Assembly (NCBI GenBank): GCA_028824295.1
Contig: JAPPED010000025.1
Span: 1 to 37,398 of the forward strand
Source of the DNA: Rhodospirillales bacterium
GTDB lineage: Bacteria > Pseudomonadota > Alphaproteobacteria > TMED109
DNA: 37,398 nt
Direction: 5' to 3'
Shown: one piece after another, positions 22,468-37,398 of the stretch
Layout: every line of letters begins with the position of its first letter
Position numbering within the stretch: the stretch's first letter is position 1
Position numbers and translations under genes: made by a program
The notes under the pieces: generated by a model
Database searches by the model: none
Seen by the model: the letters and a program-made list of their open reading frames with translations, nothing else
Told to the model about the DNA's origin: nothing

Positions 22468-22542
22468 GGGCGCGTAGCTCAGCGGGAGAGCACTACGTTG
22501 ACATCGTAGGGGTCGCTGGTTCAATCCCAGCCGCGCCCACCA
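22468..22542 (+). tRNA. tRNA-Val (anticodon GAC)
   Basis: A full cloverleaf can be drawn: acceptor GGGCGCG pairs with CGCGCCC, D-stem GCTC/GAGC, anticodon stem CTACG/CGTAG with loop TTGACAT (anticodon GAC), five-base variable loop, and T-stem GCTGG/CCAGC with loop TTCAATC. The CCA end is encoded. The gene is intact. An accessory island begins seven bases after it. Confidence 0.96.
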
Positions 22543-22544
22543 CC

Positions 22545-22549
22545 ATTTG
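22545..22549. repeat. Left 5-bp flanking repeat ATTTG (putative target duplication)
   Basis: ATTTG immediately precedes the left transposon end and is repeated at 34600-34604 directly after the right end. Five-base duplications are the rule for Tn7- and Tn5053-type insertions. Confidence 0.6.
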
Positions 22550-22620
22550 TGTCGGTATCGGCATAACTTGGCCGTTTGGCCACGTTATGAGGGGTCAGCG
22601 GTATTGGCCACGTTATGAGG
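22550..22620 (+). repeat. Left transposon end with three terminal repeats
   Basis: The tip TGTCGGTAT is followed after nine bases by TTGGCCG. Two further repeats, TTTGGCCACGTTATGAG (from 22575) and TATTGGCCACGTTATGAG (from 22602), lie inside. Such repeats are normally transposase-binding sites. The tniQ stop codon falls within the last repeat. Confidence 0.68.
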
Positions 22621-23295
22621 TGTCCATTCGCCGCGCCCAGCACCTGAGCTCCCGGACCCGCCCGGGCAGGCGTTTCCGCAGCGAATTCACCCTGACGCCA
22701 AGCGTTCTGGCCGCCTTGCGCAAACTCACCGTCTCCGGGTCTCGAAGCATCGCTTCGAAACGTGCGTCGATCTGGTCCCAGTCGATGGTGGAGCGCCGCC
22801 GCTGGCCGGGTGGTGCCCGAACCTCCCTTGGCCCGACCGGCAGGTCACCGCCGCGAAGCAGGAAGTGGATCGGGCGCACGCCAAGCTGCATGCATAGCCG
22901 CAATAGCGATTCAATGCTGACGGTGCCACTTGCCATCCATCTGGATGGCGAGTGAACCGAAACCCCCACCCGCCGCGCGAATGCCGACCGATTGCCGTCG
23001 TCCAGCGTGTCCACGAGATGCCGGACCACGCGCGAGAAGTCGCTGGGCGTCGCCGTGCGCGCGAGGGATGCTTCGCCATTGCCTCCAGGGCGGCGCAGAG
23101 GTCCGCGCACACGCGGGCCATCCAGATCTGGCGTGGCGGGAGGGTTCCCCGACCCGCTGCAGGCTGTGCTGCGGCCAGATCCGCGGCACATTCGGCGCAC
23201 CATCCCACGGCCGTGTCGTGCGGCAGCCAGGGCTGGACCACGCCGCACCCGGGGCAGCGCATCGCCAGTGCGCAACCTAGACCATCGGCTGCCAA
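22613..23295 (-). pseudogene. tniQ: TniQ family protein, truncated and frameshifted
   Basis: Two overlapping minus-strand frames together give the C-terminal part of a TniQ/TnsD-like target-selection protein. The upstream frame holds a zinc ribbon (CPGCGVVQPWLP then WCAECAADL). From roughly 23090-23050 the similarity continues in the other frame with SRVVRHLVDTLDDGNRSAF, a helix-turn-helix-like stretch (ARRVGVSVHSPSRWMASG) and the end segment LRKAARTLGVRVNSLRKRLP. The N-terminal TniQ domain is missing and the frame changes once, so the gene is judged inactive. TniQ proteins direct transposition to a chosen site, here plausibly the neighbouring tRNA gene. Confidence 0.68.
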
Positions 23296-23419
23296 GTGAC
23301 TTGTCGTTGAACGTGGGCGAAGGGTGACTCGGCCCCGTCTGGGAACCAGGCTCCTCGTATCTGAGCCATCTCCCGGAAATTGTTACATTGCGCTCTTGTC
23401 GCGGCATCGGAGGCACGCG

Positions 23420-24970
23420 ATGGGCGCTTTGCGGGGCGGGCATGCGGGCACGGGCGATCTGCCCTTCCCGAACGCCGGCACTCCCAACTGGGCGAACCAG
23501 ACGATCTGGACCGGCGACAACCTTGACATCATGCGTGGCATGAACAGCGAGTCGGTCGACCTGATCTACCTGGACCCGCCGTTCAACTCGAAGGCCAACT
23601 ACGCTGCGCCCATCGGCTCGCAGGCGGCCGGGGCTGCGTTCAAGGATACGTGGGGCCTTGACGACGTAAACCTCGCTTGGCATGGCGAGATCAAGCACGA
23701 GTATCCGGGCCTCTACGACCTGCTGAACGCCACCCGCCGGATCCACAACGATTCCATGATGAGCTACCTGATCTACATGGCGATCAGGATCATGGAGATG
23801 CGGCGCCTGCTCAAGCCGACCGGGAGCATCTACCTGCACTGCGACCCGACTGCGGGGCACTATCTGAAGTTGCTGATGGACTCGATCTTTGGCGCAGAGC
23901 GGTTCCGCTCGGAGATCGCTTGGAAGCGGAGCAGCGCCCACAGCGACACCAAGCAGGGACGTCGGCAGCACGGCCGAATCCACGATGTGCTGCTCTATTA
24001 CACGAAGGGCGACTCTTGGACCTGGAACCCGGTCTATACCGAGTATGACGCGGAATACGTCAGCAGGTTTTATCGCCACGTCGAAGCCGGGACTGGCCGA
24101 CGGTACCGAAAGGGGGATCTGACCGGGGCGAAGCCAGGGGGCGACACCCGCTACGAGTGGCGCGTGAAGCGGCCGGCCAAGGGCGATTGGGAAGCCGATC
24201 TCGGGGACGAGTGGAGGACAGGGCCCCGGCAGGGATGGGAATATCGGGGCGTGCTGCCTTACAAGGGGCGCTACTGGGCCTACGCTAGGGAGCGCATGCG
24301 CCAGTTTTCAGAGCGGGGCCGGCTCGTCTATGCGCGCTCGGGGATGCCCAACTACAAGCGCTATCTGGACGAGATGCTGGGGGTGCCTCTCCAGGACCTA
24401 TGGACCGATATCGGCCCCATCGCGCCGAGAACCCGCGAGCGCACCGGATACCCCACGCAAAAACCGCTGGCGCTGGTGGAGCGCGTCATCGCCGCCAGCT
24501 CCAACGAGGGCGACGTCGTTCTTGATTCGTTCTGCGGGTGCGCTACGGCCTGCATCGCTGCGGAGCGGCTGCAACGCCAGTGGGTCGGAATCGACATTTC
24601 GCCAAAGGCGGCCGACCTCGTGAAGTCCCGCATGCAGGAAGAACTCGGCCTGTTTTTCAATGGGGCGCACCGTTCCGACATTCCTCAGCGAACCGATGTT
24701 GGGGTCGTGCTTCGCTACAACGACGAGCGCAACCGTCGGTACCTCTACGGCCAGCAGGTCGGCTACTGCGCCGGCTGCGAAAACCACTTCGAGCTTCGCA
24801 ACATGGAGGTGGACCACATAATCGCGCGCTCAAAGGGCGGCACCGACCACATCAGCAATCTGCAGCTGCTTTGCGGCGCCTGCAACCGGACGAAAGGGAC
24901 CAAGTCGCAGGAACAACTGCTGGTGCTCCTGACCAACAAGGGGTGGCTCAAGCAGCGCCACGCAGCCTAG
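23420..24970 (+). CDS. Site-specific DNA methyltransferase fused to HNH endonuclease
   Basis: A 516-residue fusion. GGAGG lies 6 nt before the ATG at 23420. The N-terminal part is an amino-methyltransferase of the beta order: catalytic DPPF at residues 52-55 comes before the AdoMet-binding motif FCGCAT at 371-376, with target-recognition sequence between. This order is usual for N6-adenine or N4-cytosine enzymes. Residues 449-490 form an HNH nuclease with zinc cysteines 450, 453, 485 and 488 and the active-site VDHI around His466. The two activities in one chain suggest a compact restriction-modification or strand-nicking system. The gene seems intact and lies beside the tniQ remnant as cargo. 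Recognition sequence unknown. Confidence 0.85.
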   Translation: MGALRGGHAGTGDLPFPNAGTPNWANQTIWTGDNLDIMRGMNSESVDLIYLDPPFNSKANYAAPIGSQAAGAAFKDTWGLDDVNLAWHGEIKHEYPGLYDLLNATRRIHNDSMMSYLIYMAIRIMEMRRLLKPTGSIYLHCDPTAGHYLKLLMDSIFGAERFRSEIAWKRSSAHSDTKQGRRQHGRIHDVLLYYTKGDSWTWNPVYTEYDAEYVSRFYRHVEAGTGRRYRKGDLTGAKPGGDTRYEWRVKRPAKGDWEADLGDEWRTGPRQGWEYRGVLPYKGRYWAYARERMRQFSERGRLVYARSGMPNYKRYLDEMLGVPLQDLWTDIGPIAPRTRERTGYPTQKPLALVERVIAASSNEGDVVLDSFCGCATACIAAERLQRQWVGIDISPKAADLVKSRMQEELGLFFNGAHRSDIPQRTDVGVVLRYNDERNRRYLYGQQVGYCAGCENHFELRNMEVDHIIARSKGGTDHISNLQLLCGACNRTKGTKSQEQLLVLLTNKGWLKQRHAA

Positions 24971-25123
24971 CGTGGCTGCTCCCCCGGGCCAAATTTGGCT
25001 GACGACAGCGATGCGTAGCCCGTCGCTTTGCCTCTCGCACCGAGCTGTCGGGTACGAATCTGCATTCGAGTCAAGACGTTGTATCGACTCGCATTTTGTT
25101 CCCGAAATGGGCTATAATGCGAA

Positions 25124-25153
25124 AAGCCCCCAGGACCGGAATCCTGGGGGCTT
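25124..25153 (-). terminator. Strong hairpin, likely terminator
   Basis: A perfect 12-bp stem (arms beginning AAGCCCCCAGGA) around a six-base loop. On the minus strand the stem is followed by TTTT, as in an intrinsic terminator; on the plus strand no T-run follows. It could end minus-strand transcripts from the HEMAH-protein gene or limit read-through after the methyltransferase gene. Confidence 0.5.
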
Positions 25154-25261
25154 AACGATGTAACCCGCGGAGGCCAAGCCGCAGGGAACGATGCATGCGC
25201 CTGATTGGTAGCAGCCTCGGACTCTGCGGTCAAGCCTCGGCACACTCACTGGAGTTGGCCA

Positions 25262-25438
25262 ATGGCTTACTACAAGCTCAAGAAATCCTCGGACGGGCAG
25301 TTTTATTTCAACCTGCACGCCGCTAACCACGAGGTGATCGCGACGTCTGAGCGTTACACGACGAAGCAATCAGCCGAAAACGGTATTCGGTCCGTGCGTG
25401 ACAACGCCGGAACCCAGGACGTCAGGGACGAAACCTGA
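25262..25438 (+). CDS. DUF1508 (YegP-like) domain protein
   Basis: A 58-residue protein consisting of one DUF1508 unit: YYKLKKSSDGQFYFNLHAAN, then EVIATSERYTTKQSAENGIRSV. The ATG at 25262 has GGAG upstream. YegP-like proteins are small, often dimeric and of unknown function. It overlaps the convergent gene by 17 bp at its 3' end. Confidence 0.8.
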   Translation: MAYYKLKKSSDGQFYFNLHAANHEVIATSERYTTKQSAENGIRSVRDNAGTQDVRDET

Positions 25439-25874
25439 CCCCGCCCGACGGATAACCGGGTATGGCCCGCTCGATGCGGCGGGCCATGCTCGCAAGCTCC
25501 TCCCTACTGGCGATGCAGCTGCCAACTTCTCCAAGGTCGAGATGATGGGCCATCTCATGAATGAGGCCCGTGTCTCCCAGAATCTCCTCGACGCCACGCA
25601 CGCCCGATTTCAGCGCGAGAAACCCGACGAAGCAAGCGCGGTGCATCGTCTCCGGCGTGACCCCGTGCTCCTCAACCTGTTCGGCAAGTGAGGCAGCGTC
25701 CTCTGGCGAGAGCCGGCGGAACGGACGGCTGTCGATGTAATCCGTCTCGCCCAAATTCCTAGCCCGGACGACCGCCTCGATGCTTGTGGGTGAAGCCTTG
25801 ATGACCGTGGCAAACCGCCGCCGTTGACCATCGGGATTTGGTAGCGAGTATGTCGCGCTGTAGTAGCAGTCCAT
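25422..25874 (-). CDS. Hypothetical protein with HEMAH motif
   Basis: A 150-residue protein counted from the ATG at 25874 (MDCYYSATYSLPNPDG). No family is recognised. Residues around 110-125 read GLIHEMAHHLDLGEVG, which contains HExxH, the zinc-binding motif of many metallopeptidases; no third ligand or signal peptide is obvious, so peptidase function is only a possibility. The N-terminal part looks like a small beta domain. It lies in the island between a DUF1508 gene and a palindromic element. Confidence 0.55.
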   Translation of the reverse strand: MDCYYSATYSLPNPDGQRRRFATVIKASPTSIEAVVRARNLGETDYIDSRPFRRLSPEDAASLAEQVEEHGVTPETMHRACFVGFLALKSGVRGVEEILGDTGLIHEMAHHLDLGEVGSCIASREELASMARRIERAIPGYPSGGVRFRP

Positions 25875-25967
25875 TGGGCACCCTCCGATTACTGCCGCAT
25901 GATGGCTTCTTGCGCGACAAAAAGCCTGCCGCATGTTCGCTAGTCGGAAATTGATACGTGGTCTGCG

Positions 25968-26049
25968 TGACCTGCTCCCCGAAAGTTGGACCACGCAAAA
26001 CGAGAAAATTCTCAGTCTTGGAGCTGCCTAGGTCCCGGGGAGCAGGTCA
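25968..26049. mobile_element. 82-bp palindromic element with IS3-like ends (MITE-like)
   Basis: Begins TGACCTGCTCCCCG and ends with the exact reverse complement, giving 14-bp perfect terminal inverted repeats. The inner sequence GAAAGTTGGACCACG resembles the ends of IS3-family elements. No gene fits inside. I see no clear target duplication. Related copies occur at 36113-36245. Confidence 0.65.
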
Positions 26050-26289
26050 AAAGTGAAGCCATCGGAAGTCGAGAGTTGGATGTAATCCTTCCTGACACCC
26101 GTTCCTTCCGCCAGTGACATCTCTGAAACGGACGGCGTCTGCGTTGCTTCCAGCGCATTTGGGACGAACGGGCGCTACAACAGGGCTGGTTGCGGATAGG
26201 GGCGACCAGGCACATTGACCAGGACAATTCCGCGTCGCTTCCGCCGCCTGCCCACGCCCCGGCCGACGTGGCCACGACAGGAGGTCGCA
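26050..26289. other. Intergenic stretch before the PLP-enzyme gene
   Basis: About 240 bp without a supported gene; with the flanking palindromic element the gene-free interval is about 415 bp. A 30-codon minus-strand frame (ending about 26024) looks weakly protein-like and runs into the palindrome, perhaps the tail of a lost gene. Confidence 0.4.
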
Positions 26290-27582
26290 ATGTCAGGAGC
26301 AAAGTCCTTTCGGCGTACCCGCATCGGCGATCGTACGCTGCACCCCGCCACGCAGATGATGTCGTACGGATATGACCCGTCCATGTCCGAGGGAGCCGTC
26401 AAGCCTCCGGTGTTTCTGACCTCGACGTTCGCCTTCCAGTCGGCGGAAGAAGGGGCCGACTTCTTCGACGTGGTCGCGGGACGCAAGGCGGCACCGCAGG
26501 ACGGTGGCGCCGGCGGTCTGGTGTACAGCCGCTTCAACCACCCCAACACGGAAATAGTCGAGGACCGACTGGCGCTGCTGGACGGGGCCGAAAGCGCCTT
26601 GCTGACCGCCTCGGGCATGGCCGCGATCGGGGCGTTGTTCCTGACCATGGCCCGTCCGGGCGACGCCGTCGTCCACTACACGCCGCTCTACGGCGGCACG
26701 GAAACCCTGCTGACCAAGGTCATGCCTGCCTTGGGGGTGCATTCGGTTCCGTTCACCGATGGGTTGTCGGAGACCGCGCTCCTCCACGCGCTCGACACTG
26801 CGGCGCGCCTGGGCCCGGTAAAGATGCTGTACTTGGAAACCCCGGCGAACCCCACCAACGCCGTCATTGATCTGGCCATGACGCGGCAGGTGATTGACCA
26901 GTGGTCGCGGACGGACGCCGAGCGCCCGATCATCGTCTGCGACAACACCATGTTGGGGCCGGTGTTCCAGAAGCCCATCGCACTTGGCACCGATATCTGC
27001 GTTTACTCGCTGACCAAGTACATCGGTGGGCACAGCGACTTGATCGCGGGCGGCATCACCGGTTCGCGCGAACTCCTGAACCCCATCCGCCTGACCCGTA
27101 GCGCCTTCGGCTTTCAACTCGATCCGCACTCTTCCTGGATGCTCTCCAGATCGCTGGAGACCCTGTCCCTGCGGATGGAACGGGCCGCCCAGTCTGGGTC
27201 GCAAGTTGCAGCCTGGCTGGCTCAGAACACCATCGTTCCCTGCCGGGTGCTGCACCCGGAGCATGCGGATGACCCGAAGGCGGCCGAGGTATTTTCGGCG
27301 CAGTGCAGCGGACCCGGGTCAACCTTCTCCTTCGCGGTCGACGACGACCGCTCGCTTGCGTTTCGGATCCTGAATGAACTGAGCCTGTTCAAGCTGGCCG
27401 TGAGTCTGGGCGGTACCGAGTCGCTGGCCTGTCACCCGGCTTCCACGACCCATTCGGGCGTGCCGCCGGAAACTCGCCGCGCCGCCGGCGTGACAGACGG
27501 CCTCATCCGGCTTTCCGTCGGACTGGAGCATCCCGAAGACCTCATCGAGGATTTGCGACAGGCCTTTACCAGGGCGGTGTAG
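26290..27582 (+). CDS. Cystathionine gamma-synthase/methionine gamma-lyase family PLP enzyme
   Basis: A 430-residue PLP-dependent transsulfuration-family enzyme with a perfect AGGAGGT site before the ATG at 26290. Seen: YSRFNHPNTEIVEDRLALLDGAE, the SGMAAI phosphate-cup region, YLETPANPTN, CDNTM with the cofactor-binding Asp, and SLTKYIGGHSDLIAGG holding the Schiff-base lysine. Length and motifs are intact. It could perform gamma-elimination or gamma-replacement on methionine, cystathionine or homoserine esters; sequence alone does not decide. It looks like a normal chromosomal metabolic gene, yet it lies inside the bounds of the transposon, unlike the other cargo. Confidence 0.88.
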   Translation: MSGAKSFRRTRIGDRTLHPATQMMSYGYDPSMSEGAVKPPVFLTSTFAFQSAEEGADFFDVVAGRKAAPQDGGAGGLVYSRFNHPNTEIVEDRLALLDGAESALLTASGMAAIGALFLTMARPGDAVVHYTPLYGGTETLLTKVMPALGVHSVPFTDGLSETALLHALDTAARLGPVKMLYLETPANPTNAVIDLAMTRQVIDQWSRTDAERPIIVCDNTMLGPVFQKPIALGTDICVYSLTKYIGGHSDLIAGGITGSRELLNPIRLTRSAFGFQLDPHSSWMLSRSLETLSLRMERAAQSGSQVAAWLAQNTIVPCRVLHPEHADDPKAAEVFSAQCSGPGSTFSFAVDDDRSLAFRILNELSLFKLAVSLGGTESLACHPASTTHSGVPPETRRAAGVTDGLIRLSVGLEHPEDLIEDLRQAFTRAV

Positions 27583-27713
27583 GGCGAGTGGTCCTAGGCG
27601 AGCCAAGCCCTGCAAGACAGGTCGAAAGGTGGCGCACCTCTCTTGCTGCCGGCTCGGACGTCAGGCAATCACGGCAGGTCGGTGGGAATCGCTACATTAT
27701 GTGACAAGATTCA

Positions 27714-27843
27714 CGGTATTGGCCAAGTTAATGTTCCAATGCCCGTCGGCAGCTGTGCGATGAACGCCCTGATGTGACCCAAACCGGGCGACCTACGGCC
27801 ACATAGTGGTGTTGCCTGTGGCCAACAATTCGGGACTTGTCCG
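27714..27843 (-). repeat. Degraded internal right transposon end
   Basis: The stretch from CGGTATTGGCCAAGTTAATG (27714-27733) to GGCCAACAATT (27820-27830) matches the order and spacing of the right end at 34471-34599, including GCCCTGAT in the middle. The outer tip is altered and no TGTCGG tip or 5-bp repeat is left. It marks an older insertion in the same orientation. No gene is seen in the rest of the 27583-27902 interval. Confidence 0.55.
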
Positions 27844-27902
27844 TACGCCGCCGTGTTGGCACCTAGCGTTCGAGCGAAAAGGCACTGCCCAAAGAACTTA
27901 CT

Positions 27903-28907
27903 CTACGAACGGTTGTTCGCCGACTTAACCGTTCGCAGCTGCATCATCAATTCCTCACCCCTCTTCGTCAATTCCCAAAATAGAGCCATCCCGCCCTTGG
28001 ATGTTCTTGTGTAATTGGTGCGGATTAGTCCCAAGGCTGTTAACTGTAAGCGAATAGTCTGAAAATCTTGGTGATCAACGCGAACTTGTTGAGGTTCACC
28101 CGCAAAATTCTTGCGCCAGATCGCAACACCCAAGGCCGCATCGACTGTCCCGTCACTTGGATGCTTTTGCAAGTCAGGGGAAATCCACCCAAATAGCTCG
28201 TTCCAGCTTACGGAGACCTCCCTTGTCCTATTTCCCTGCGGGAAAGACTCGTAGTAGTTCAATCGCAGAGTAATGGCTTCCTCCATAGGAGCTAAGTCCG
28301 TATTCTTCGCAGAGGCTCGTGATTCCAATTCGGACACACTGGCTTGCAGTTGGACATTCTCTTTGCGCAATATGTTTAGATCTTCCAGCAATTCTCCGCT
28401 GACCACATTGGTGGCACGAACCCAGCCAACCGCCGGATAAACCTTAATCGTTTTCGACAAACTTAGTGCTACCAGCCCTGGTAATTCGGCAGCGTCGCTC
28501 CACATCTTCACTAATCTGTTTGTTCTGACTTTCTCACGAAATGTTTCCAATTTGCTCCTTAATTCTGGGGCAATATCAGATTTTCCTACAGGAATTTCGT
28601 CTGGTCGTTCGTGCAAGAACGCGAGGACTTTGAGCCCACGGGCAATAGCATAATCATATTCTTTCTCCGTATAACTCATTCCTTCTTCTGTTAATGATCC
28701 ATAGCGGCCACCAATGATCACAATGTAGTAATCACAGTCATCTATCACGCGTTGAATGAATTTCCACTGCTCCTCGTCTGTAGCAGGAAAAAGCTCCATC
28801 CCGGCCGGAATGCAATCCAATTCCATGACAGTTTGTATTACCTTCTGACGTTCTTCCTTTAGGTCTGCGTAGGTCGAACTAACGAAGATCTGATAACGTT
28901 TTTCCAT
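27903..28907 (-). CDS. DUF4062 domain-containing protein, last gene of the TIR operon
   Basis: A 334-residue protein. The N-terminal domain is DUF4062: [18 protein letters not shown], then [13 protein letters not shown] and [13 protein letters not shown]. The domain is often found at the front of STAND-type immune or signalling proteins; its biochemical role is unproven. A central coiled coil ([19 protein letters not shown]) joins it to a C-terminal winged-helix-like region ([20 protein letters not shown], ending with a LTKRGEELM helix). Base composition is visibly more AT-rich than the core genes, a sign of transfer. It begins 9 nt after the upstream membrane-protein gene, so the pair is one transcription unit. 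Confidence 0.82.
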
Positions 28908-28916
28908 TTCCTGAAC

Positions 28917-29765
28917 CTACGGTGTCTTGCGGACTGGTGTCTGACCACCCGAACCGCGGAGATTCGCTACTTTGCCTAGCAGATCAAACCAGAACGGCGC
29001 CCCTAGACTCACGGCAGCAGTAGTAATGATCCACCCCAACAACGTCTTGAGCCAGTCCAAGGCACTGCTAGGAGCGGCGCTCCAGCCGATGGGAAAAGCT
29101 TCTAGGTCGTCTAAGCTGCTGGCCTCGAGTCCCGAGACCTCGCCGGTTTGCGCCGCTACCTGAGCCTGTGCTGCGATCTGTGTCCGCAGCGCGTCGTTGC
29201 GCCAAAATTCTTCAGCCATATGAATGGAACTGGCATTGGTCGCCAATGTAACGGAGCCTGCGATCGCAAAGATCATCACCTTGGCTTGACGCTTGTACCA
29301 GCCAGCCACCCTTGACATACCTTCGTCAAACCAGCCAGCAAGTCTATCTTTCAGGGCAGTGGCAGCATCGTCTCCATCGTCGATGAGTGCCGCGAGGACT
29401 TCCTTCAGCGGATGATCCGAACTTATGCTGCTGACCAGGGCCTTGGCTTCTTCGGCTGAATGGGCCACGTAGGACTTGCCATTGCTTTCCTTGGCGATCA
29501 CTTCCAAGACGACCCCGCTGAGCGTGTCAGGGTTAATGTAGGACGGCAGTTTCTTGTCTTTTGACAAATTCTTGATGAGCGGATGCTCGTACACTTTTTC
29601 TGCATAAGTGCCGCCTAGCAGGTTCTGGACGCCCTTGCGCAAGTTCTTCGAACGCAATGCGCACAGGCTGGCTATCCACTCCTGGACAGCTGACGCTACT
29701 AGGCTAAGCACGACATAGAAGAAGATCAGTCCAAGACCAACATCAATTATCGGATGGTCCAACAT
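28917..29765 (-). CDS. Membrane protein of unknown function, TIR operon
   Basis: A 282-residue protein. An N-terminal membrane segment (GLGLIFFYVVLSLVASAVQ) is followed by a soluble helical domain. A second hydrophobic stretch comes at about 165-182 (VMIFAIAGSVTLATNASS) and a third near the end (LLGWIITTAAVSLGAPFWFDLL) before a short tail (VANLRGSGGQ). The PFWFDLL-xx-xxNLRG ending recurs in uncharacterised bacterial membrane proteins, but I know no assigned function. In an immune operon a multi-pass protein could be a membrane-damaging effector; this is inference from context only. A GAGG lies upstream of the ATG. Confidence 0.7.
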   Translation of the reverse strand: MLDHPIIDVGLGLIFFYVVLSLVASAVQEWIASLCALRSKNLRKGVQNLLGGTYAEKVYEHPLIKNLSKDKKLPSYINPDTLSGVVLEVIAKESNGKSYVAHSAEEAKALVSSISSDHPLKEVLAALIDDGDDAATALKDRLAGWFDEGMSRVAGWYKRQAKVMIFAIAGSVTLATNASSIHMAEEFWRNDALRTQIAAQAQVAAQTGEVSGLEASSLDDLEAFPIGWSAAPSSALDWLKTLLGWIITTAAVSLGAPFWFDLLGKVANLRGSGGQTPVRKTP

Positions 29766-29893
29766 TGCAATTGTTACCCCTCAGTTTGCTACAGGTATCC
29801 CTGCTTGCCGATTCCGGTGAACATGTTGCGTCTGCGCACGATTGAATTTCCTTAGGCGCAAACACCAAGTAGATCTCTCCGTCGAGGCCTCAT

Positions 29894-30058
29894 CTATTCC
29901 CATCCCCGACGGATGTCGGTTCGATTGCACTGCGGGCAGTGGACCGGCACCGACGGTTGATTGCGCCTCTCCGCTTCTAGCCGCTCGCGCCCGCTCAGTA
30001 CCTGAGTCTCGAAACGGTGTCCGCAATTGTTGCACCGAAAACGAACCAGATCAGTCAC
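29894..30058 (-). CDS. 54-residue zinc-ribbon protein (GTG start)
   Basis: A short frame starting at GTG 30058 and overlapping the end of the TIR gene by 8 nt. The protein begins with a strand and knuckle (VRFRCNNCGHRFETQ) and ends HCPQCNRTDIRRGWE, so two CxxC knuckles are spaced as in a zinc ribbon. Small zinc ribbons act as adaptors or nucleic-acid binders. The overlap implies translational coupling to the TIR protein. It is easily missed because of its length and start codon. A gap of 128 nt separates it from the next operon gene. Confidence 0.68.
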   Translation of the reverse strand: MTDLVRFRCNNCGHRFETQVLSGRERLEAERRNQPSVPVHCPQCNRTDIRRGWE

Positions 30059-30992
30059 TGGTTACTCCTGCTCGTTCCAGAAAATCCTCCCACAGTCGTT
30101 CGGCAGCTGCCTCCGGAGTCAGCCGTTCTTGGTCCCCTCCAAACCCCATTGCTGAGCTCAGGTAGAGCTCATATTCGTCGGCATTGACCGTAAACATGCC
30201 GTTTGCCGTGTTGGGCGGGGCGCTTTCGGCGAACGAATACGAAATGTCGCCGAGCGCTGTATTCCCACTACGCCCATGGACAGTGATGTGTGCCGTACCG
30301 TGTTCACGCGCTCGGTTGACGATCGTGCAGGTGAAAGAGGCGGGGGAAAGCAACTTTATGCGCCCTCTCAGGTCCTCTATCGCGTCAATTTCCGCAACCG
30401 CACGCTCGAAGTAGCCTCGGATCGCGCCAAAGGCTGCCTCGCGAAAATCGCTGCGGTCGATCTCGTCGAAATCCCGCTTCACACGATAGCGGCGGACTCC
30501 CGGCTGAACAGGCGCTGCCGGAATTGTCGCCTCGCCCCGCTCCGTGCTACTCGGCGCCCCTTCGGCGTCCAGTATCCGCCTCAGTTCCCGTACGACATCA
30601 ACGAAGGCATGGTTCTCGTTGGTCCATTCGCTGACCGGCTTGCCGTCTCGAGGAAGTGCCTTGAGATCTCGGAGGGGAGTGGAGGGCCAATCACAGGGCT
30701 CCAAGATTATGGGAACCACTCTGGCGTGGCCCGACCGATGGCGTTCGAGGGCTCGGTCCATTTCTCTTTCCACGCAATAGTCCGAGGCAAGAAAATCTGG
30801 ACTGACCAGCAGCAGGAATAACCGGGAGGCTTCCAGCCGTTCGGCGATCTCGGCGTCGATTGCCCCGCCTGCGAGGATTTCTCGATCAAACCATTCATCG
30901 ATGCGCCGATCCCGGCGAAGCACAGCCAAATGGGTGTGCAGCCGATCGAGAGCTGCTTCGTCCTTGTGTGAATAAGAGATAAATACCTTCAT
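30051..30992 (-). CDS. TIR domain-containing protein, candidate immune effector
   Basis: A 313-residue protein with an N-terminal TIR domain: VFISYSHKDEAALDRL (residues 3-18), LLVSPDFLASDYCVEREM with a candidate catalytic glutamate at 75-77, and RVVPIILEPCDW. Bacterial TIR domains commonly cleave NAD+ or make cyclic ADP-ribose-type signals during phage defence. After a linker, residues 165-313 form a separate domain (SDFREAAFGAIRGYFERAVAEI, then a beta-rich part ITVHGRSGNTALGDISYSF) that I do not recognise and that may sense or bind. It lies 30 nt behind the DUF2188 gene in the minus-strand operon. Confidence 0.88.
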   Translation of the reverse strand: MKVFISYSHKDEAALDRLHTHLAVLRRDRRIDEWFDREILAGGAIDAEIAERLEASRLFLLLVSPDFLASDYCVEREMDRALERHRSGHARVVPIILEPCDWPSTPLRDLKALPRDGKPVSEWTNENHAFVDVVRELRRILDAEGAPSSTERGEATIPAAPVQPGVRRYRVKRDFDEIDRSDFREAAFGAIRGYFERAVAEIDAIEDLRGRIKLLSPASFTCTIVNRAREHGTAHITVHGRSGNTALGDISYSFAESAPPNTANGMFTVNADEYELYLSSAMGFGGDQERLTPEAAAERLWEDFLERAGVTSD

Positions 30993-31022
30993 CTTCAGCG
31001 CTTTTCCCGGAGTTGGTCCTGA

Positions 31023-31259
31023 CTAGTGCTTTCGGTCACGTGGCGGGTTGGGATCGTTTCCAGGCGGCACCGTGTCGGAGTCCCGCCATCGGCCATCCCG
31101 TCCCTGGATGCGAACTTCGCCCCCTCCCAGATTGGCGACCGTCTGTTTGGCTGCCTGCTCAGCCTTGCGCTGAGTCCCGTGCACGCTGCTTGCCCGTTTG
31201 CCACCCGGGGCCTTCACGGCCCAGCCTTTTGGATGCTTGGTCACATAGCGATCCGCCAT
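31023..31259 (-). CDS. DUF2188 domain-containing protein, first gene of the TIR operon
   Basis: A 78-residue protein starting at ATG 31259 with the usual DUF2188 opening RYVTKHPKGWAVKAPGGKR. The helix KAEQAAKQTVANLGGGEVRI and the RDGRWRDSDT turn follow; the tail is proline-rich. The function of DUF2188 is unknown. It heads the minus-strand operon and faces the WYL-family regulator across a 92-bp intergenic region holding a palindrome. An extended start at 31334 would swallow that region and was rejected. Confidence 0.82.
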   Translation of the reverse strand: MADRYVTKHPKGWAVKAPGGKRASSVHGTQRKAEQAAKQTVANLGGGEVRIQGRDGRWRDSDTVPPGNDPNPPRDRKH

Positions 31260-31277
31260 CAACATTTTCCTTTCCGG

Positions 31278-31307
31278 TTGACCTCGGGACCTCGAAGGAG
31301 GTATATC
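31278..31307 (+). promoter_or_regulatory. Putative promoter of the WYL regulator gene
   Basis: TTGACC (31278-31283) and TATATC (31302-31307) are separated by 18 bp on the plus strand. The predicted start of transcription falls just before the palindrome at 31320-31343. Confidence 0.4.
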
Positions 31308-31319
31308 GTAGATCCATAA

Positions 31320-31343
31320 AGTTTCTTTGTCCATATAGAAACT
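31320..31343. promoter_or_regulatory. Putative operator palindrome AGTTTCT-N10-AGAAACT
   Basis: Two perfect 7-bp arms separated by 10 bp lie 8 bp before the regulator ATG. They also overlap a minus-strand promoter candidate (TGGACA, 17 bp, TACGAT). A dimeric regulator bound here could repress both the operon and itself, as BrxR/CapW proteins do. Confidence 0.5.
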
Positions 31344-31351
31344 AGACGCGT

Positions 31352-32215
31352 ATGAGTGCAGGAGTATCGGAACTGAGGTGGGGCATCGAGCGTCGCCTCG
31401 AATTCATAGAATTCCGGCTGTACTGGGAGGGAGGGATCAACCGCAGTGACATCGTGGAACAGTTCGGCGTGTCGGTACCTCAGGCCTCCAAGGACCTCAG
31501 CCGGTACCAGGAGCTCGCGCCAGACAACATGGCGTACGACAAGAGCGAGAAACGATACTTCCCGGCTCCTCACTTCGTGCCCCGGTTTTATCGACCGGAT
31601 CCAGACGAGCACCTTGCTCAGCTCAATGCCGTGGCCACGCTTGCCGTGCCACCCCAGGAAACCTGGTTGTCAAGAACTCCGAACGTTGACTCACTGCCAG
31701 CGCTACAACGCAAAGTTGAACCCGAGGTCCTGCGCGCACTACTAGATGCAGTAAAGGACGAACGGGCCTTGGAAATTCTGTATCAGTCGATGAACCCCGT
31801 GCGCCCCGAGCCCGTGTGGCGGGGAATCAGCCCGCACGCCTTCGCCAACGACGGCTACCGCTGGCACGTTCGCGCTTTCTGCCACATCGACAGCTCCTTC
31901 AAGGATTTCCTGCTCTCTCGTTGTCTCGACTATCGTCCTGCCGGCCGCGCACTAGGGAAGCCATCAGACGATCGAGACTGGACACAAGTCTTGGATGTAG
32001 AGCTTAGACCCAATCCAAAATTGTCCAAGTCTCAACAACTCGTAATTTCTGACGATTATGGAATGGAGAACGGCAAGCTTAAGGTTTCCATCAGGAAATC
32101 ACTCTTCTTCTACTTCGAACGCCACCACCGACTTGATTTGGCGGAAGCCGTTCACAGGCCACAGGAAGCACCTGTTGTCATTGAACGTCGAATACGTGCA
32201 ACCTCCCAAACGTGA
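31352..32215 (+). CDS. WYL domain transcriptional regulator (BrxR/CapW-like)
   Basis: A 287-residue regulator. The N-terminus is a winged helix-turn-helix (LEFIEFRLYWEGGINRSDIVEQFGVSVPQASKDLSRY). A WYL domain follows at about 135-200 (ALEILYQSMNPVRP...PHAFANDGYRWHVRAFC), and then a C-terminal extension. This order and opening are typical of the BrxR/CapW family that controls BREX, CBASS and other defence loci, sensing an unknown ligand and releasing repression. Here it is divergent from the DUF2188-TIR operon across a palindrome. The gene is intact. The ligand is unknown and control of the operon is inferred from layout. Confidence 0.87.
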   Translation: MSAGVSELRWGIERRLEFIEFRLYWEGGINRSDIVEQFGVSVPQASKDLSRYQELAPDNMAYDKSEKRYFPAPHFVPRFYRPDPDEHLAQLNAVATLAVPPQETWLSRTPNVDSLPALQRKVEPEVLRALLDAVKDERALEILYQSMNPVRPEPVWRGISPHAFANDGYRWHVRAFCHIDSSFKDFLLSRCLDYRPAGRALGKPSDDRDWTQVLDVELRPNPKLSKSQQLVISDDYGMENGKLKVSIRKSLFFYFERHHRLDLAEAVHRPQEAPVVIERRIRATSQT

Positions 32216-32404
32216 CAGCAATCGCGGGCACGTCTCGACTCTTCACAACGCGGGGCCGACGACGAAGGCGCCTCCATGCCGACTGGACCCGAGACGCGCC
32301 CGGGTACCGCAATGTGAAGGACGTTTTCGGACACGCGACGAGGCGACGGATATCTGATCGAACGACAAGGCCCTACGGTTCGCCCCAACCACATGGAGGC
32401 ACTT

Positions 32405-32668
32405 ATGCCGCCAAGGAAGCCGCGGAGGACCGTCCATCTGGAAGCCAGCGTTTGGTAAAACGAGCAGGACGACAAAATTCACAATGCTGCGAAGGGAGAT
32501 CACGGCTTCATCACGACCGTGAACTGGGATCCTGCCAGCCTGCGCGGACACCCAAACCTGTTTCGAAAGCTCGCCCAGCACCTGCGAGACCATGGTGCCT
32601 TCCCCCGGGATGAGGGCCCAATACCTGAGCGTCTATTGAGCGGGCAACCGGTGCCTGTCGCCTCGTAG
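32405..32668 (+). pseudogene. Small island-type protein gene with one in-frame stop
   Basis: From ATG 32405 (GGAGG five bases upstream) the frame reads PPRKPRRTVHLEASVW, then TAA at 32456-32458, then continues protein-like for 69 codons (GFITTVNWDPASLRGHPNLF, RKLAQHLRDHGAF) to TAG at 32666. It resembles a family of small basic proteins common on mobile islands. The single nonsense codon at codon 18 suggests a recent pseudogene; a sequencing error is also possible. Function unknown. Confidence 0.55.
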
Positions 32669-33183
32669 GCGGATTGACCTAATGAGCGGGACACGCTCGG
32701 ATCCGAGAATTTGCTGGCTGTCCGCGGTCCAAACTCAGAGGAACAGGTCTAGCACGTGCGCCAACATTACGACTGGATCAGCCGATCCAGGCTGACCGCA
32801 TAGGCTGCTACAGGCTCAAAATGCACACACCGGTCCTGTGGAGGCAACCCGATCTGCTCAGGGAGAGCCGGTCCACATCATCATGCCGACGCCGACGGTC
32901 ACAACGCGCCCAGTGACAACACTGACACGGCGAAGTAACTGCCGAGCTAATTGGGCTGGCGAGCCGACGCGTTCGACGCGGGTCCGGCTGCACTCCAACT
33001 GCTGCGAATGCTCAGGAGCGAGGCCCCGGGGGCAGCGCAGGCATTGAAGACGGTGGCGGTCAACGGGCGGTTCGATCAGCGCAGAAGGCTATCAATCAGT
33101 TGTCGGGAAGACTTAGCCGAGCGATTGCGGTATAGCCCCGATAGCCAACGCCGCACTCGACGGCAGACGGACAGGGGACGAAA
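32669..33183. other. Non-coding or decayed stretch, nothing recognised
   Basis: About 515 bp before the AbiJ-like gene. Only short frames without conserved features are open. It may hold decayed island genes. The interval 32216-32404, upstream of the broken small gene, likewise shows no recognised gene. Confidence 0.45.
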
Positions 33184-34128
33184 TTGGCCGTAATCGACCT
33201 ATTTTCCCATCAGAAGCAAGTTGCCGAAGGCGGCACGCCTGATGTCTTCACCTATGACTCGCTGCCCGAACGGCTCTTGGTTCAAGTTATCCACATCTGG
33301 AAAGACGCCATTGGCCCGTATTACCAGGCCCAAGGTTACGAGTTGGAAGAGCCGCCCCATAACAATGTCGGATGGCAGTACATTCATGACACGATTGCCC
33401 GAGAACACGGGGTATTCCAGCTGGGCCGCATCGACCGCATCGACGAGCGTTGCCAGACCTACCTTCGAAAAAGCCCCTCGGTTGACGCGTCGCTCGACCT
33501 GATCGAAATGAGCTTCAGGTACGTCGACCGGCATGTGCGACAATGTAGCCAGTACGAGCGAGAAGACCTTGGCATCGCGGTTACGGCAGACGCTGCAATC
33601 GAAGAACTGAACGAGCGATTCCGGCGCGCCGGCGTCGGTTACCGGTTTGAGGGCGGAATGCTCATCCGCGTGGATTCAGAGCTGGTCCACTCCGAAGTAG
33701 TCCTGCCAGCATTGCACTTTCTCCAACACAAGGGCTTCGAAGGCCCGCGTGGCGAGTTCCTGAAGGCGCATGCTCACTTCCGTGCCGGCGAAACCAAGGC
33801 CGCCGTCATCGAGGCGAACAACGCTTTCGAAAGTACATTGAAGACGATTTGCGACCAAAGAGGTTGGTCGTATCCGGAACGGCCCCGGGCATCAGATCTG
33901 CTTAAGGTGGTGCGGGAGAAAGGCCTCCTACCCAACTACCTCGACCAGTCGTTTGATCAATTGACCGCCACGCTGAAGTCTGGTCTGCCGAAAGTCAGAG
34001 GAGAAGAAGGCGGCCATGGGCAAGGATCGATCGCGCGTCCCACGCCGCAGTATGTGGCAGCATATGCGCTACATCTCGCGGCGGCACAGATTCTCTTCCT
34101 GGCCGAGGTGCATAGAACCGAGGGCTAG
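33184..34128 (+). CDS. STM4504/CBY_0614 family protein, AbiJ-like
   Basis: A 314-residue protein starting at TTG 33184, preceded by AGGGGA. The N-terminal domain (AVIDLFSHQKQ, VIHIWKDAIGPYY, LIEMSFRYVDRHVRQ) matches the AbiJ-NTD4 type. The C-terminal half (FLKAHAHFRAGETKAAVIEANNAFE, ICDQRGWSYPERPRASDLL, GGHGQGS) matches the abortive-infection C-terminal (Abi_C) pattern seen in STM4504/CBY_0614 proteins. Family membership suggests phage-triggered growth arrest, possibly through RNA cleavage, but direct evidence for this subgroup is limited. It stands alone on the plus strand within the island. Confidence 0.84.
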   Translation: MAVIDLFSHQKQVAEGGTPDVFTYDSLPERLLVQVIHIWKDAIGPYYQAQGYELEEPPHNNVGWQYIHDTIAREHGVFQLGRIDRIDERCQTYLRKSPSVDASLDLIEMSFRYVDRHVRQCSQYEREDLGIAVTADAAIEELNERFRRAGVGYRFEGGMLIRVDSELVHSEVVLPALHFLQHKGFEGPRGEFLKAHAHFRAGETKAAVIEANNAFESTLKTICDQRGWSYPERPRASDLLKVVREKGLLPNYLDQSFDQLTATLKSGLPKVRGEEGGHGQGSIARPTPQYVAAYALHLAAAQILFLAEVHRTEG

Positions 34129-34161
34129 TAAGCCGCCAAGCCGGCCCTGCTGTGGGATCAG

Positions 34162-34341
34162 TGACTTGCTCCCTGGTGGGATCACCCATTGCGAGAACAA
34201 TCTCGGATAGGATTTCGTGGCCCGATCGGGGAAGAGGCCATAAAGCGGTCGAAGTTCAGTGAGCAGCAGATCACGTTCATCCTGCGCCAGGCGAAGGAAG
34301 GGACGCAGGTCGAGGAGGTGCGCCGGCAGGCGGGGACTTCT
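34162..34341 (+). pseudogene. IS3-family element remnant (left end and orfA start)
   Basis: The end-like TGACTTGCTCCCTGG at 34162 is followed 78 bp later by the start of an OrfA-type transposase: KRSKFSEQQITFILRQAKEG then TQVEEVRRQAGTS. The expected ATG reads ATA. Similarity ends after about 34 codons at 34341, so only the helix-turn-helix head remains. It lies just inside the right end of the larger transposon. Confidence 0.66.
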
Positions 34342-34438
34342 GTGCAGAGGTATCCTTGTGAAGGCCCCACCGGTCAGGCGGCCAGTGCTACAGACCGTGC
34401 TGCGCGCGCAGCTTGACACGAGCTTCCTCACAAGAGCT

Positions 34439-34599
34439 GCGGTATTGGCCAAGTTATGCCCCATAGTTCGCGGTATTGGCCAAGTGTTGGTCCCGCGGCT
34501 CCCCACTACAGTGCTAGAAGCGCCCTGATTCGGGCTTGATCGCGCGATTCCCGGCCAACTTATGGGTTCAGGTGCGGCCAACAATTGGGAATACCGACA
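34439..34599 (-). repeat. Right transposon end with four terminal repeats
   Basis: Repeats begin at 34439 (GCGGTATTGGCCAAGTTATG), 34470 (GCGGTATTGGCCAAGTGTTG), 34553 (GGCCAACTTATG) and 34576 (GGCCAACAATTG). The outer tip ends CCGACA at 34599. Read inwards the tip is TGTCGGTAT-N9-TTGGCCG, the same layout as the left end. Confidence 0.68.
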
Positions 34600-34604
34600 A
34601 TTTG
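34600..34604. repeat. Right 5-bp flanking repeat ATTTG
   Basis: Matches ATTTG at 22545-22549. It is squeezed between ACA of one element and TGT of the next, so the same five bases serve as junction for two ends. Confidence 0.6.
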
Positions 34605-34735
34605 TGTCGGGAATTTCATAATTTGGCCGAACGGCCACGTAATGAGCCCCAGACGGGAACGGCCAGGTAATGAGCCCTCTCTTTCAGGGCACGCCGACGC
34701 AGTTCTTCGACCTCCGCGGGCAGGCGTTGGTGACC
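34605..34735. mobile_element. tniQ: Second left transposon end with tniQ remnant
   Basis: TGTCGGGAA-N9-TTGGCCG starts directly after ATTTG. Inner repeats follow (GGCCACGTAATGAG, GGCCAGGTAATGAG). The minus strand from about 34735 to 34680 encodes RLPAEVEELRRRALKE, matching the C-terminus of the TniQ pseudogene at 22613-23295. The copy is cut off near 34731 by an IS3-like end. Confidence 0.58.
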
Positions 34736-34761
34736 TGCCCCCACTGAATTGGTCCACCGTG
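34731..34761 (+). repeat. Solitary IS3-like terminal sequence
   Basis: TGACCTGCCCCC followed by ACTGAATTGGTCCACC resembles an IS3-family end. It truncates the second left transposon end; no transposase follows. Confidence 0.5.
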
Positions 34762-34812
34762 AAGGTGAGTGAACGGAGGCCTTGGACTTGGTGCCGGGGA
34801 GTTAGGCTCGGA

Positions 34813-35613
34813 CTACGCCGCTAGGTAGCCGTCATCGCACATGATGGTGTGGCCGGTCACCAGTTCGGACGCATCGCTCGCGAGGAAGATTGCAGCCCCG
34901 ATCAGATCGCGCGGCAAGCCCACCCGCGGCCGGAGCATACGCGCCTTGATGAAATCGGCAGTGAGCGAGGTCGTCTGGGCGGCCTTTTGGGTCATGGGGG
35001 ATTCCATCAGAGTGGGTCCGATGCCATTGACGCGCACACCTCTCTCGCGCCACTCCAACGCCAAGACCTTGGTCACTTGGGCGACGCCGCCCTTCGACGC
35101 GATGTAGGCGCTCGACAACGGATAGGCGATAAAGGAGCCGATCGACGCCATGTTGATGATGCTGCCCTTGCCCTGCTCCAGCATGACAGTGCCGAACGCC
35201 TGACAGCACAGATACGTGCCCTTTAGGTTGAGATCAATGATGTGGTCGAAGCGCTCCTCGGGGAACTCCTCGGCGGGGCTTCGGTGCGCAGCGCCCGCGC
35301 TGTTGACGAGGATGTCGATGCGTCCGTGCTCGCGCCGCACCGCTCCCGCAACCTCGACGCACTGGCTCCGCTTCGTCACGTCAAGCGGCACCGCGACGGC
35401 GGTCCCGCCCTGCTCGTCGATGACCGCCTTGGTCTCGGTCGCGCCCTCCTCGTTTATGTCGGCGACGACAACCGTGACGCCGCATTGCGCGTAGCCGATG
35501 GCGATGGCCCGACCGAGTCCGCTTCCGCCGCCGGCGATCACGGACACGCGGCCGGTCAGGTCGAAGATATCGCGCGCGTAGCCGAGCGGAACGCTGCTTT
35601 CATCCGATGACAT
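34813..35613 (-). CDS. SDR family oxidoreductase
   Basis: A 266-residue classical short-chain dehydrogenase. ATG 35613 has GGAG at the right distance; an upstream ATG at 35685 adds an unconserved leader. Seen: the cofactor loop AGGGSGLGRAIA, DINEEG after the second strand (suggesting NAD preference), NSAG, catalytic residues in MASIGS...SSAYIASK, and a typical C-terminus with VTGHTIMCDDGYLAA. It resembles gluconate 5-dehydrogenase-type SDRs, but the substrate is not determined by these motifs. It lies just outside the island and appears intact. Confidence 0.87.
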   Translation of the reverse strand: MSSDESSVPLGYARDIFDLTGRVSVIAGGGSGLGRAIAIGYAQCGVTVVVADINEEGATETKAVIDEQGGTAVAVPLDVTKRSQCVEVAGAVRREHGRIDILVNSAGAAHRSPAEEFPEERFDHIIDLNLKGTYLCCQAFGTVMLEQGKGSIINMASIGSFIAYPLSSAYIASKGGVAQVTKVLALEWRERGVRVNGIGPTLMESPMTQKAAQTTSLTADFIKARMLRPRVGLPRDLIGAAIFLASDASELVTGHTIMCDDGYLAA

Positions 35614-36112
35614 GGACACTCCGGAGGGTGTGTGGAATGGGGTGACCGACGTGGGCGCCGCCGTGATACTCAGATCTGCCCCCACAGCCGCTTGGTAGCT
35701 GGCACCGTCTCGGCAGGAATTGATCGGGGCTGATCACCACAAGAGTGTCATCGAGTGTCAAGGCTGACGATCCTTCCCTGATTGGTGACATCTGATTCGG
35801 TTGAAACAAGCCAGGTATGGACCTGTGCCGGGCCGTAACGATACCGTCTAGAGAGGCTGGCGACGGGCGCGGAAGTAGGCTTGGGCGGCATTGCGCAACA
35901 GCATTTGGATGCCGTGGGTCCGGAATTCTCTCACATTGCGAGTCTTGGTCGAAGCCAAGTGCAATCCGGGAATGCGCAAGATGGAAGCCTCCAAATACCT
36001 CGCCGATGTATTTGTACCAGAGTAGCCGGACCCTGCCGTCGCAACGCTGGAGCGTGATCGATGCGCCCTGTGGGATTGTTCGCGTTGCCGGATCATCGGG
36101 CGCGGTCGTTGA
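35614..36112. other. Intergenic stretch, no supported gene
   Basis: About 500 bp upstream of the dehydrogenase gene. Overlapping short frames exist on both strands, but none shows a domain. A minus-strand frame ending near 35848 looks weakly protein-like; I could not identify it. Confidence 0.4.
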
Positions 36113-36165
36113 TGACCTGCTCCCCGGAAGTTAGACCACGTAAAACGAGAAGCTTCTCGGCTTTA
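36113..36165. mobile_element. Half copy of the palindromic IS3-like element
   Basis: Starts TGACCTGCTCCCCGG and continues like the left half of the element at 25968, including AAAACGAGAA, then stops where a second copy begins. Confidence 0.55.
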
Positions 36166-36245
36166 TGACCTGCTCCCTCGAAGTCGGACCATCCAATACG
36201 AGAATTTTCCCGTTATCCGTGGTCCAACTTCCAGGGAGCAGATCA
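36166..36245. mobile_element. 80-bp palindromic element with IS3-like ends
   Basis: Starts TGACCTGCTCCC and ends GGGAGCAGATCA. The two halves are nearly complementary through the full length, centred on GAATTTTCC, so the single strand would fold into one long hairpin. It directly follows the half copy in the same orientation. Confidence 0.62.
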
Positions 36246-36617
36246 GTCGCTCGCCTGCAAAGGTCTTCATTGCGGCGACTGGTGAAATCAGGATCACAGC
36301 TTTTCGCGCCACAAGGCGGCACCGTCTATCCCACACAAGCATTGGGTGACAGGTGTAACTGAGCCTGACACGAAATCGAGGCCAGCCAGCTTTGCCCTAG
36401 AAACGACGCGTTCGCTGTCCAGCCCCGTTATGTCGTTTGGCTAGCTCGTCTCTGCAGCTGCGCCAAGAATGCTCTCGCCCCGACTCCGGACGCCTGTAGA
36501 GGGATGTTTCACGCGCGGGAGACCTTCCAGACTAAGCAATAGTTGGGTTGCCGTTCCGCGACCGAGATGCGGCCCAGCGCCCATCGCTCAATGCTCTCCA
36601 TCCGGCGGCAATCTGCC
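36246..36617. other. Intergenic stretch, nothing recognised
   Basis: About 370 bp after the palindromic elements. Frames are short and without features I can interpret. Confidence 0.4.
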
Positions 36618-36767
36618 ATGCGCCCCATTGCCAAGCCCGTCATCGCCCTGATGATCTCGCAGTCGCTCACTGCATGCGGGGGCGGAAGCTCTCCCACGTT
36701 CGCCGGCCAGCAGGTCGACGAGATCACCAACGACCCGAGTTCCTCGGGAAGAGCCATGAACCCGTGA
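36618..36767 (+). CDS. Possible small lipoprotein
   Basis: A 49-residue frame with a lipoprotein signal: basic start MRPIAK, short hydrophobic stretch, and the lipobox LTAC followed by GGGSS. Only about 30 residues remain after the cysteine. It precedes the larger lipoprotein gene by 53 nt and shares the LTACG signature, so it could be a truncated relative or a small partner. It may also be a chance frame. Confidence 0.35.
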   Translation: MRPIAKPVIALMISQSLTACGGGSSPTFAGQQVDEITNDPSSSGRAMNP

Positions 36768-36820
36768 TTGGCGTGTTGTACCGAGATGATCTGACGGCGG
36801 CCTTCGGAGACGACCGATAG

Positions 36821-37398
36821 TGCGCACAGCCAACTACGTACTGATACTCGCCTGCACCTGTCTACTCACGGCCTGCGGCAGTTCGAGCCCTGGATCGACG
36901 GCTAGTGGCCTGACCCTTGACCCGGAAAGGGTCGCGGTCGGCCTGCAGGGAGGTTTCCAGCTAAGGACCGGAGGCGCGGCCGGCCGCCTTGCCAATGCCA
37001 GCTACGAAGTCTTTGACGAGTGGGAGATGCCCGTTGTCGCCGGCTTCCCCGTTTCGGTCGGTCGCCATCACGTCGATGGCACGGACAACGTCAAGGCGAC
37101 GTATAGCAACAAGACCGAGCGCGAGTACTTCTTTGGGCAGGGCGGGCTCGAGTTCGGGTACTACATACGGTTTCTGGACGATGCACTGATCGTCTATCCC
37201 TACGCGCATTCCAATTTTCCCTTTGGCACTGTCGAAAGGGTTGCCGGCAGTGCCGGCTATTCGGGCGCAATGGTTGGGCTTTACGAGCACCGCGGCGAAT
37301 CCATCCTTCGCGCTGGTCCGTTCGCTGCAGACGCAGCCTTCGAGGTCGATTTCGATGCCGACACTTTGACCGGGACGATTACCGGCTTCAGGGACGGC
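36821..37398 (+). CDS. Transferrin-binding-protein-B-like lipoprotein (3' end outside window)
   Basis: An open frame from GTG 36821 to the window end, 192 codons visible, with GGAG upstream. The signal peptide ends with the lipobox LTAC followed by GSSSPGS. The rest is beta-rich, and the visible end (GYSGAMVGLYEHRGES, FAADAAFEVDFDADTLTGTI) matches the eight-stranded barrel domain of TbpB-like solute-binding lipoproteins. Such proteins sit on the outer surface and bind host or environmental ligands; the ligand here is unknown. Without the C-terminus the fold assignment remains a strong suggestion. Confidence 0.72.

Follow-up and report, generated by a model that had tools for sequence, protein, structure and literature searches.

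Why should two left ends of Tn7-like elements stand one behind the other beside a single tRNA gene, each preceded by the same five bases? The question is raised by the window analyzed here, the whole of contig C25 (37,398 nt) from an alphaproteobacterial genome of 3.0 Mb labelled G000, for which repeated use of one insertion site had been proposed from the sequence alone. We compared the locus among seven genomes of the genus (G000 and G022 to G027). With a probability of about 0.9, we read the tRNA-Val(GAC) site as the place to which a fused-TnsAB, Tn7-like family homes; the family is related to type I-B2 and apparently CRISPR-less, and successive elements have reused the site, stacking at one base. 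The ends, the 5-mers, their order and orientation, the sister alleles and an independent second stack can be read directly from these genomes.

Ends and junctions in the window

On the tRNA side, the CCA of tRNA-Val is followed by CC, a first ATTTG and the TGTCGG that opens the left end of the inner element (LE1; Table 1). At the far side, the right end of the inner element (...GGGAATACCGACA, with CCGACA as its last bases) stops at 34599, a second ATTTG follows, and the left end of an older outer element (LE2) begins with TGTCGGGAATTTC... from 34605. The back-to-back ends that had been described, ACA-ATTTG-TGT with LE2 starting right after ATTTG, are thus borne out at 34594-34605. TGTCGG/CCGACA termini and subterminal repeats (GGCCACGTTATGAG / GGCCAAGTTATG) are those of Tn7-like ends, and ATTTG is identical on both sides of the inner unit, where chance agreement would be 1/1024. 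In an ungapped comparison, LE1 agrees with LE2 at 50 of 75 positions; the next-best site in the window (both strands) stays below 42/75, about 20,000 randomly placed 75-mers reach a top score of 35, and a 24-base probe of LE2 has 0 matches in shuffled sequence. LE2 as a chance similarity is ruled out by the shuffles and the 75-mer controls.

The second left end was also said to have its own TniQ C-terminal remnant in the same orientation, and this holds, though the remnant is very short (about 14 codons). It reads QRLPAEVEELRRRA, as against KRLPEKVEELRQRAR at the C-terminus of the complete TniQ of G025, and breaks off at 34730/34731, where an IS-like end, TGACCTGCCCCC, interrupts it. The TniQ piece behind LE1 is far longer. 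Short IS-like termini (TGACCTGCTCCCC...) without a full IS are found in the window at 25968-26052, 34730-34757 and 36113-36245, one of which truncates LE2.

Table 1. Features of the stacked locus beside tRNA-Val, in window coordinates.
Feature	Position	Strand	Basis
tRNA-Val (GAC), attachment gene, intact	22468..22542	+	ARAGORN; conserved in 7/7 genus genomes
Left ATTTG copy of the 5-bp duplication	22545..22549	+	Ancestral 5-mer of sister genomes is GTCTT/GTCTA
LE1, left end of inner element, repeats GGCCACGTTATGAG	22550..22624	+	nhmmer E 2.9e-22; 91% identical to tRNA-proximal LE of G026
C-terminal half of TniQ/TnsD, frame-shifted remnant	22643..23274	-	tblastn 60% identity, E 9.5e-43
Inner element unit, 12,050 bp, without transposase genes, defence-type cargo; may equal two fused elements	22550..34599	+	Ends and matching 5-mers
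Degenerate internal right end, RE'	27686..27843	+	nhmmer E 1.1e-24; groups with outer RE and C29 RE
Right end of inner element	34427..34599	+	nhmmer E 7.5e-52
Right ATTTG copy, between both elements	34600..34604	+	Read from sequence
LE2, left end of older outer element	34605..34678	+	nhmmer E 1.5e-18; 62 nt identical to G022
TniQ C-terminal remnant of outer element (QRLPAEVEELRRRA)	34688..34729	-	Compared with C-terminus of G025 TniQ
Outer element, decayed, continuing on contig C19 to RE at C19:902, about 3.6 kb in total	34605..37398	+	55-nt contig overlap; G022:C79 colinear

The inner unit carries defence-type cargo at 27903-34128, including a gene for a ThsB-like TIR protein (PADLOC E 4e-71), which has a DUF4062 gene and a 282-aa gene without any match as neighbours; no canonical ThsA was seen near the TIR gene in this cargo. 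A WYL regulator, an AbiJ_NTD4-DUF7014 protein and a DUF2188/PDC-S16 protein are encoded in the same stretch. At 23324-24970 of the window lies a gene for a 548-aa protein in which an N6/N4 DNA methylase is fused to a C-terminal HNH nuclease domain.

The older insertion and use of the site across the genus

The outer element can be followed past the contig end, where contig C19 of the same genome overlaps by 55 nt and a colinear contig of G022 (C79) crosses the junction. Its right end finishes at C19:902 and is followed by GACAT and then by a native flank conserved in all seven genomes. The element has decayed: it contains IS remnants but no transposition genes, and its flanking 5-mers are now unequal (ATTTG or GTCTT on the left, GACAT on the right). 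G000 and G022, which are 95.5% identical upstream, have the right end (96% identical), GACAT and the native flank in common, so the outer insertion is older than their separation.

It had been reasoned that, with the inner element removed, the older left end would lie at exactly the same distance from the tRNA. Such an allele is real: in G022, tRNA-Val-CC-GTCTT runs into LE2 with no inner element between, the 5 nt being GTCTT, not ATTTG, and LE2 is identical over 62 nt, where the G022 contig ends. The inner element was found in G000 only, with just short matches (77% identical) in G022, so that it was added nearer the tRNA in the lineage of the window (unless G022 has lost it exactly). An outer insertion common to G000 and G022 and an inner one in G000 alone support the claim of two independent insertions at one base.

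Strong site specificity, a further part of the original prediction, is supported by the genus as a whole. A recognisable left end faces tRNA-Val in six of the seven genomes and is the proximal end wherever it can be read (that of G023 is truncated); its spacing from CCA is 7 bp where the junction is intact, and 6 in G026, where a base has dropped out. As to whether stacks beside this gene are common and always in one orientation, junctions of the form RE-5 bp-LE are present in four genomes, every one in the same orientation. The clearest is that of G024, which reads tRNA-CC-GTCTT-(1.3 kb)-GTCTT-(outer)-GTCTT-native, one 5-mer in three copies. Its outer element also occurs in G027 (right end 94% identical, interior 93-95%), where the inner element is missing, and the G024 stack is a second one, independent of that in G000. 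Decayed stacks are seen in G026 (RE-GTGGT-LE, the second left end being reduced to 27 nt, E 0.002) and in G023 (RE-GTCGT-TGTCGG). In G025, an apparently complete element adjoins the tRNA, and an older element, common to G026, is found on a different contig, adjoining the native flank; the assembly does not span the gap between these two contigs. A search for right and left ends beside the native flank in G023, G025 and G026 gave no significant right end.

Some copies of the family are also located away from tRNA-Val. One of them, in the same genome as the window (G000:C29:15426-21645; L021 5427-11646), has intact ends and carries TniQ remnants together with LpxR-like and EcsC-like genes. In addition, a miniature element of 591 bp was observed in G022 (G022:C58; L029 17929-18519). 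Target duplications of 5 bp are found as ATTTG/ATTTG in the window, as the three copies of GTCTT in G024, and as CCAGC, TCAAC and CGAGG at G000:C29, G022:C58 (the miniature element) and G023:C12, respectively. A left-end scan of 85,000 genomes gave matches in this genus alone.

Alternative origins of the stack

Could the second left end be a duplicate or rearrangement of the first element rather than the trace of an earlier insertion, an outcome that the original prediction itself had named as fatal? LE1 and LE2 do belong to one family, lie in one orientation and are both accompanied by TniQ C-terminal sequence. However, they are just 67% identical, whereas LE1 is 91% identical to an end in another species (G026); LE2 alone adjoins the tRNA in G022; and at the native flank the outer element finishes in a diverged right end of its own. 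The right ends stacked in G000 are 58% identical, and the corresponding values for G024 are 61% (left ends) and 82% (right ends). Because stacked ends have diverged to this extent, each with its own partner end, duplication or rearrangement is ruled out here, save for a very small residual chance. Weak target immunity between the variants, which had also been proposed, is plausible and fits the diverged ends; the picture would be the same if the outer element had decayed or if escape occurred at low frequency. A stronger version holds that immunity was irrelevant, the inner element having met an outer one that was already dead, with degraded or partly deleted ends. The decay of the outer element, with its IS remnants and lack of transposition genes, and the reduction of the second left end to stubs in G026 and G023 speak for this, but LE2 keeps its terminal TGTCGG and recognisable repeats in both the window and G022, and the outer element of G024 has both ends intact by profile search, so we consider it rather unlikely. 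A simple two-wave model, with all inner elements of one subtype and all outer elements of the other, was dropped: in G025 the GTAATGAG type is found nearest the tRNA and the other type in the older, G026-shared element, and support for the left-end tree is weak.

The inner unit itself may have a composite history. RE', the degenerate right end in its interior, is 59% identical to the right end at 34599 and groups with the right ends of the outer element and of the C29 copy instead. The unit could therefore represent two successive insertions fused by a deletion (one from 22550 to about 27843, the other from an unplaced start to 34599), and the window would then hold three stacked remains. Matching ATTTG on both sides is no proof of a single element, since in a stack all 5-mers are copies of one. 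On the other side, the sequence beside 27843 yielded neither a left-end remnant nor a third 5-mer, and capture of cargo between two right ends of one element would also be possible; we regard the fusion as a tentative option, less probable than its absence. The 5-mer poses a separate question, as the window has ATTTG where G022 has GTCTT despite the common outer insertion. Three of the five bases differ with length kept, and the probability of three such changes in five bases by neutral divergence at 4.5% is about 0.001; the 5-mer of G025, CGGTC, likewise departs from GTCTT. The change from GTCTT to ATTTG must precede the inner insertion; our guess for its source is an element that had inserted at this spot before and was lost again. 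The departure of ATTTG from the ancestral GTCTT at an insertion common to G022 would also suit arrival of the inner element by homologous recombination with the ATTTG stack of a related strain, not by transposition in this lineage. This is improbable in our view: the flanks are identical to G022 on both sides (105 nt on the left, 62 nt on the right), and recombination merely shifts the stacking event to another lineage. Equally speculative, and doubtful at present, is a ratchet in which CRISPR-less I-B2-like variants would diversify their end repeats (GTTATGAG vs GTAATGAG), escape mutual immunity and build a layered island, with repeated insertion and loss rewriting the 5-bp spacer (GTCTT to ATTTG) at unchanged length. 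Successive insertion at one base by a homing family remains our preferred reading.

Transposition machinery, proposed mechanism and known systems

The core genes were found in a relative of the window's elements, the element beside the tRNA in G025 (contig C29 of that genome), which encodes a TniQ with an HTH, TnsC, a TnsA+rve+Mu_C fusion (fused TnsAB) and a second TniQ; the two elements of the window retain TniQ remnants only. Among PDB entries, the closest to these proteins are 9bw1 for TnsAB (E 3e-147), 8v32/9bw1 for the TnsD-like TniQ (E 4e-33) and 8fcu for TnsC (E 1.5e-36; also in 8v32/9bw1). We take these entries to be structures of PmcCAST, a type I-B2 CAST. Neither Cas genes nor a CRISPR array came to light on G025:C29 10300-27969 (17.6 kb, the right end of the element lying beyond the assembly), and CAST identity is therefore not supported for the part seen. 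TnsAB of this family is absent from the genome of the window, where C8 holds the sole match, a distant one; of 385 sampled genomes of the class, none contained a close TnsAB relative. Both window elements are now non-autonomous because their own genome is without TnsAB of the family and they keep TniQ remnants only. The same genome contains a second, unrelated Tn7-like element (G000:C8:78000-92000; L119) with its own TniQ and a TnsB-like gene (about 30% identical).

A mechanism can be proposed from these homologies. TnsD-protein-guided targeting of tRNA-Val is suggested by the similarity to the TnsD of PmcCAST: a TnsD-like TniQ would bind the tRNA gene, TnsC and TnsAB would then be recruited, and the element would be inserted by cut-and-paste, its left end (the TniQ side) toward the tRNA, 7 bp past the CCA, with duplication of 5 bp. 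The recognised sequence inside the tRNA gene would survive the insertion, so the same spot would be usable again. Each newer element would displace the older one outward, giving tRNA-5-(new)-5-(old)-5-native and copying the 5-mer, and diverged end sets may have provided the escape from target immunity.

This scheme is in line with published work on related systems. According to a review, I-B2 and I-D CASTs derive from fused-TnsAB Tn7-like elements with a tRNA-targeting TnsD, a subfamily in which the recognised site is kept after insertion and whose non-CRISPR members are unstudied (PMC11406308). The type I-B2 CAST PmcCAST (Tn7744) resembles the family described here in its fused TnsAB, TnsC and TnsD-like TniQ, as represented by G025 and entries 9bw1/8v32/8fcu, and the PmcCAST target plasmid carries tRNA-Val (PMC10293859), which would be the homing target in both. 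In contrast, the family of this genus showed no Cas genes and no CRISPR array along 17.6 kb of contig in G025, its host is an alphaproteobacterial (Rhodospirillales) MAG genus, and it inserts 7 bp past the tRNA, whereas the I-D CAST CyCAST inserts about 30-33 nt past it (PMC10293859). Target immunity normally limits tandem insertion; orthogonal ends are invisible to other transposases, relieve this limit and make it possible for insertions to follow one another at a single site (PMC11702153). Laboratory tandem insertions of CASTs are alike in that the target is kept, which makes tandem insertion in one place possible (PMC11702153). Unlike them, the stacks in this genus are natural, evolutionary ones of diverged elements, with no evidence for tandem copies of one element.

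Genomic islands of Tn7 were reportedly described by Parks and Peters in 2007. In general terms, one source (PMC8649781, citing Peters 2014) describes elements transposing into or beside an existing one so that multiple ends result, and islands of Tn7 or other heteromeric-transposase elements with several left and right ends are to that extent similar to the present case. The accumulation of Tn7-like elements at one attachment site is thus known behaviour, to which this locus adds a new and well-resolved case from a CRISPR-less, I-B2-like branch that has been little studied, and one that links this fused-TnsAB branch to tRNA-Val homing. The matched pairs of diverged ends are on offer for testing target immunity between natural variants. 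The attachment gene is tRNA-Val here and glmS in Tn7 islands; and, unlike those islands, the present system has left an unusually clean natural record within one genus, in which the inner-free allele that precedes the stack, the stacked allele, an independent second stack and apparently complete machinery are all seen, the first and third of these in sister species.
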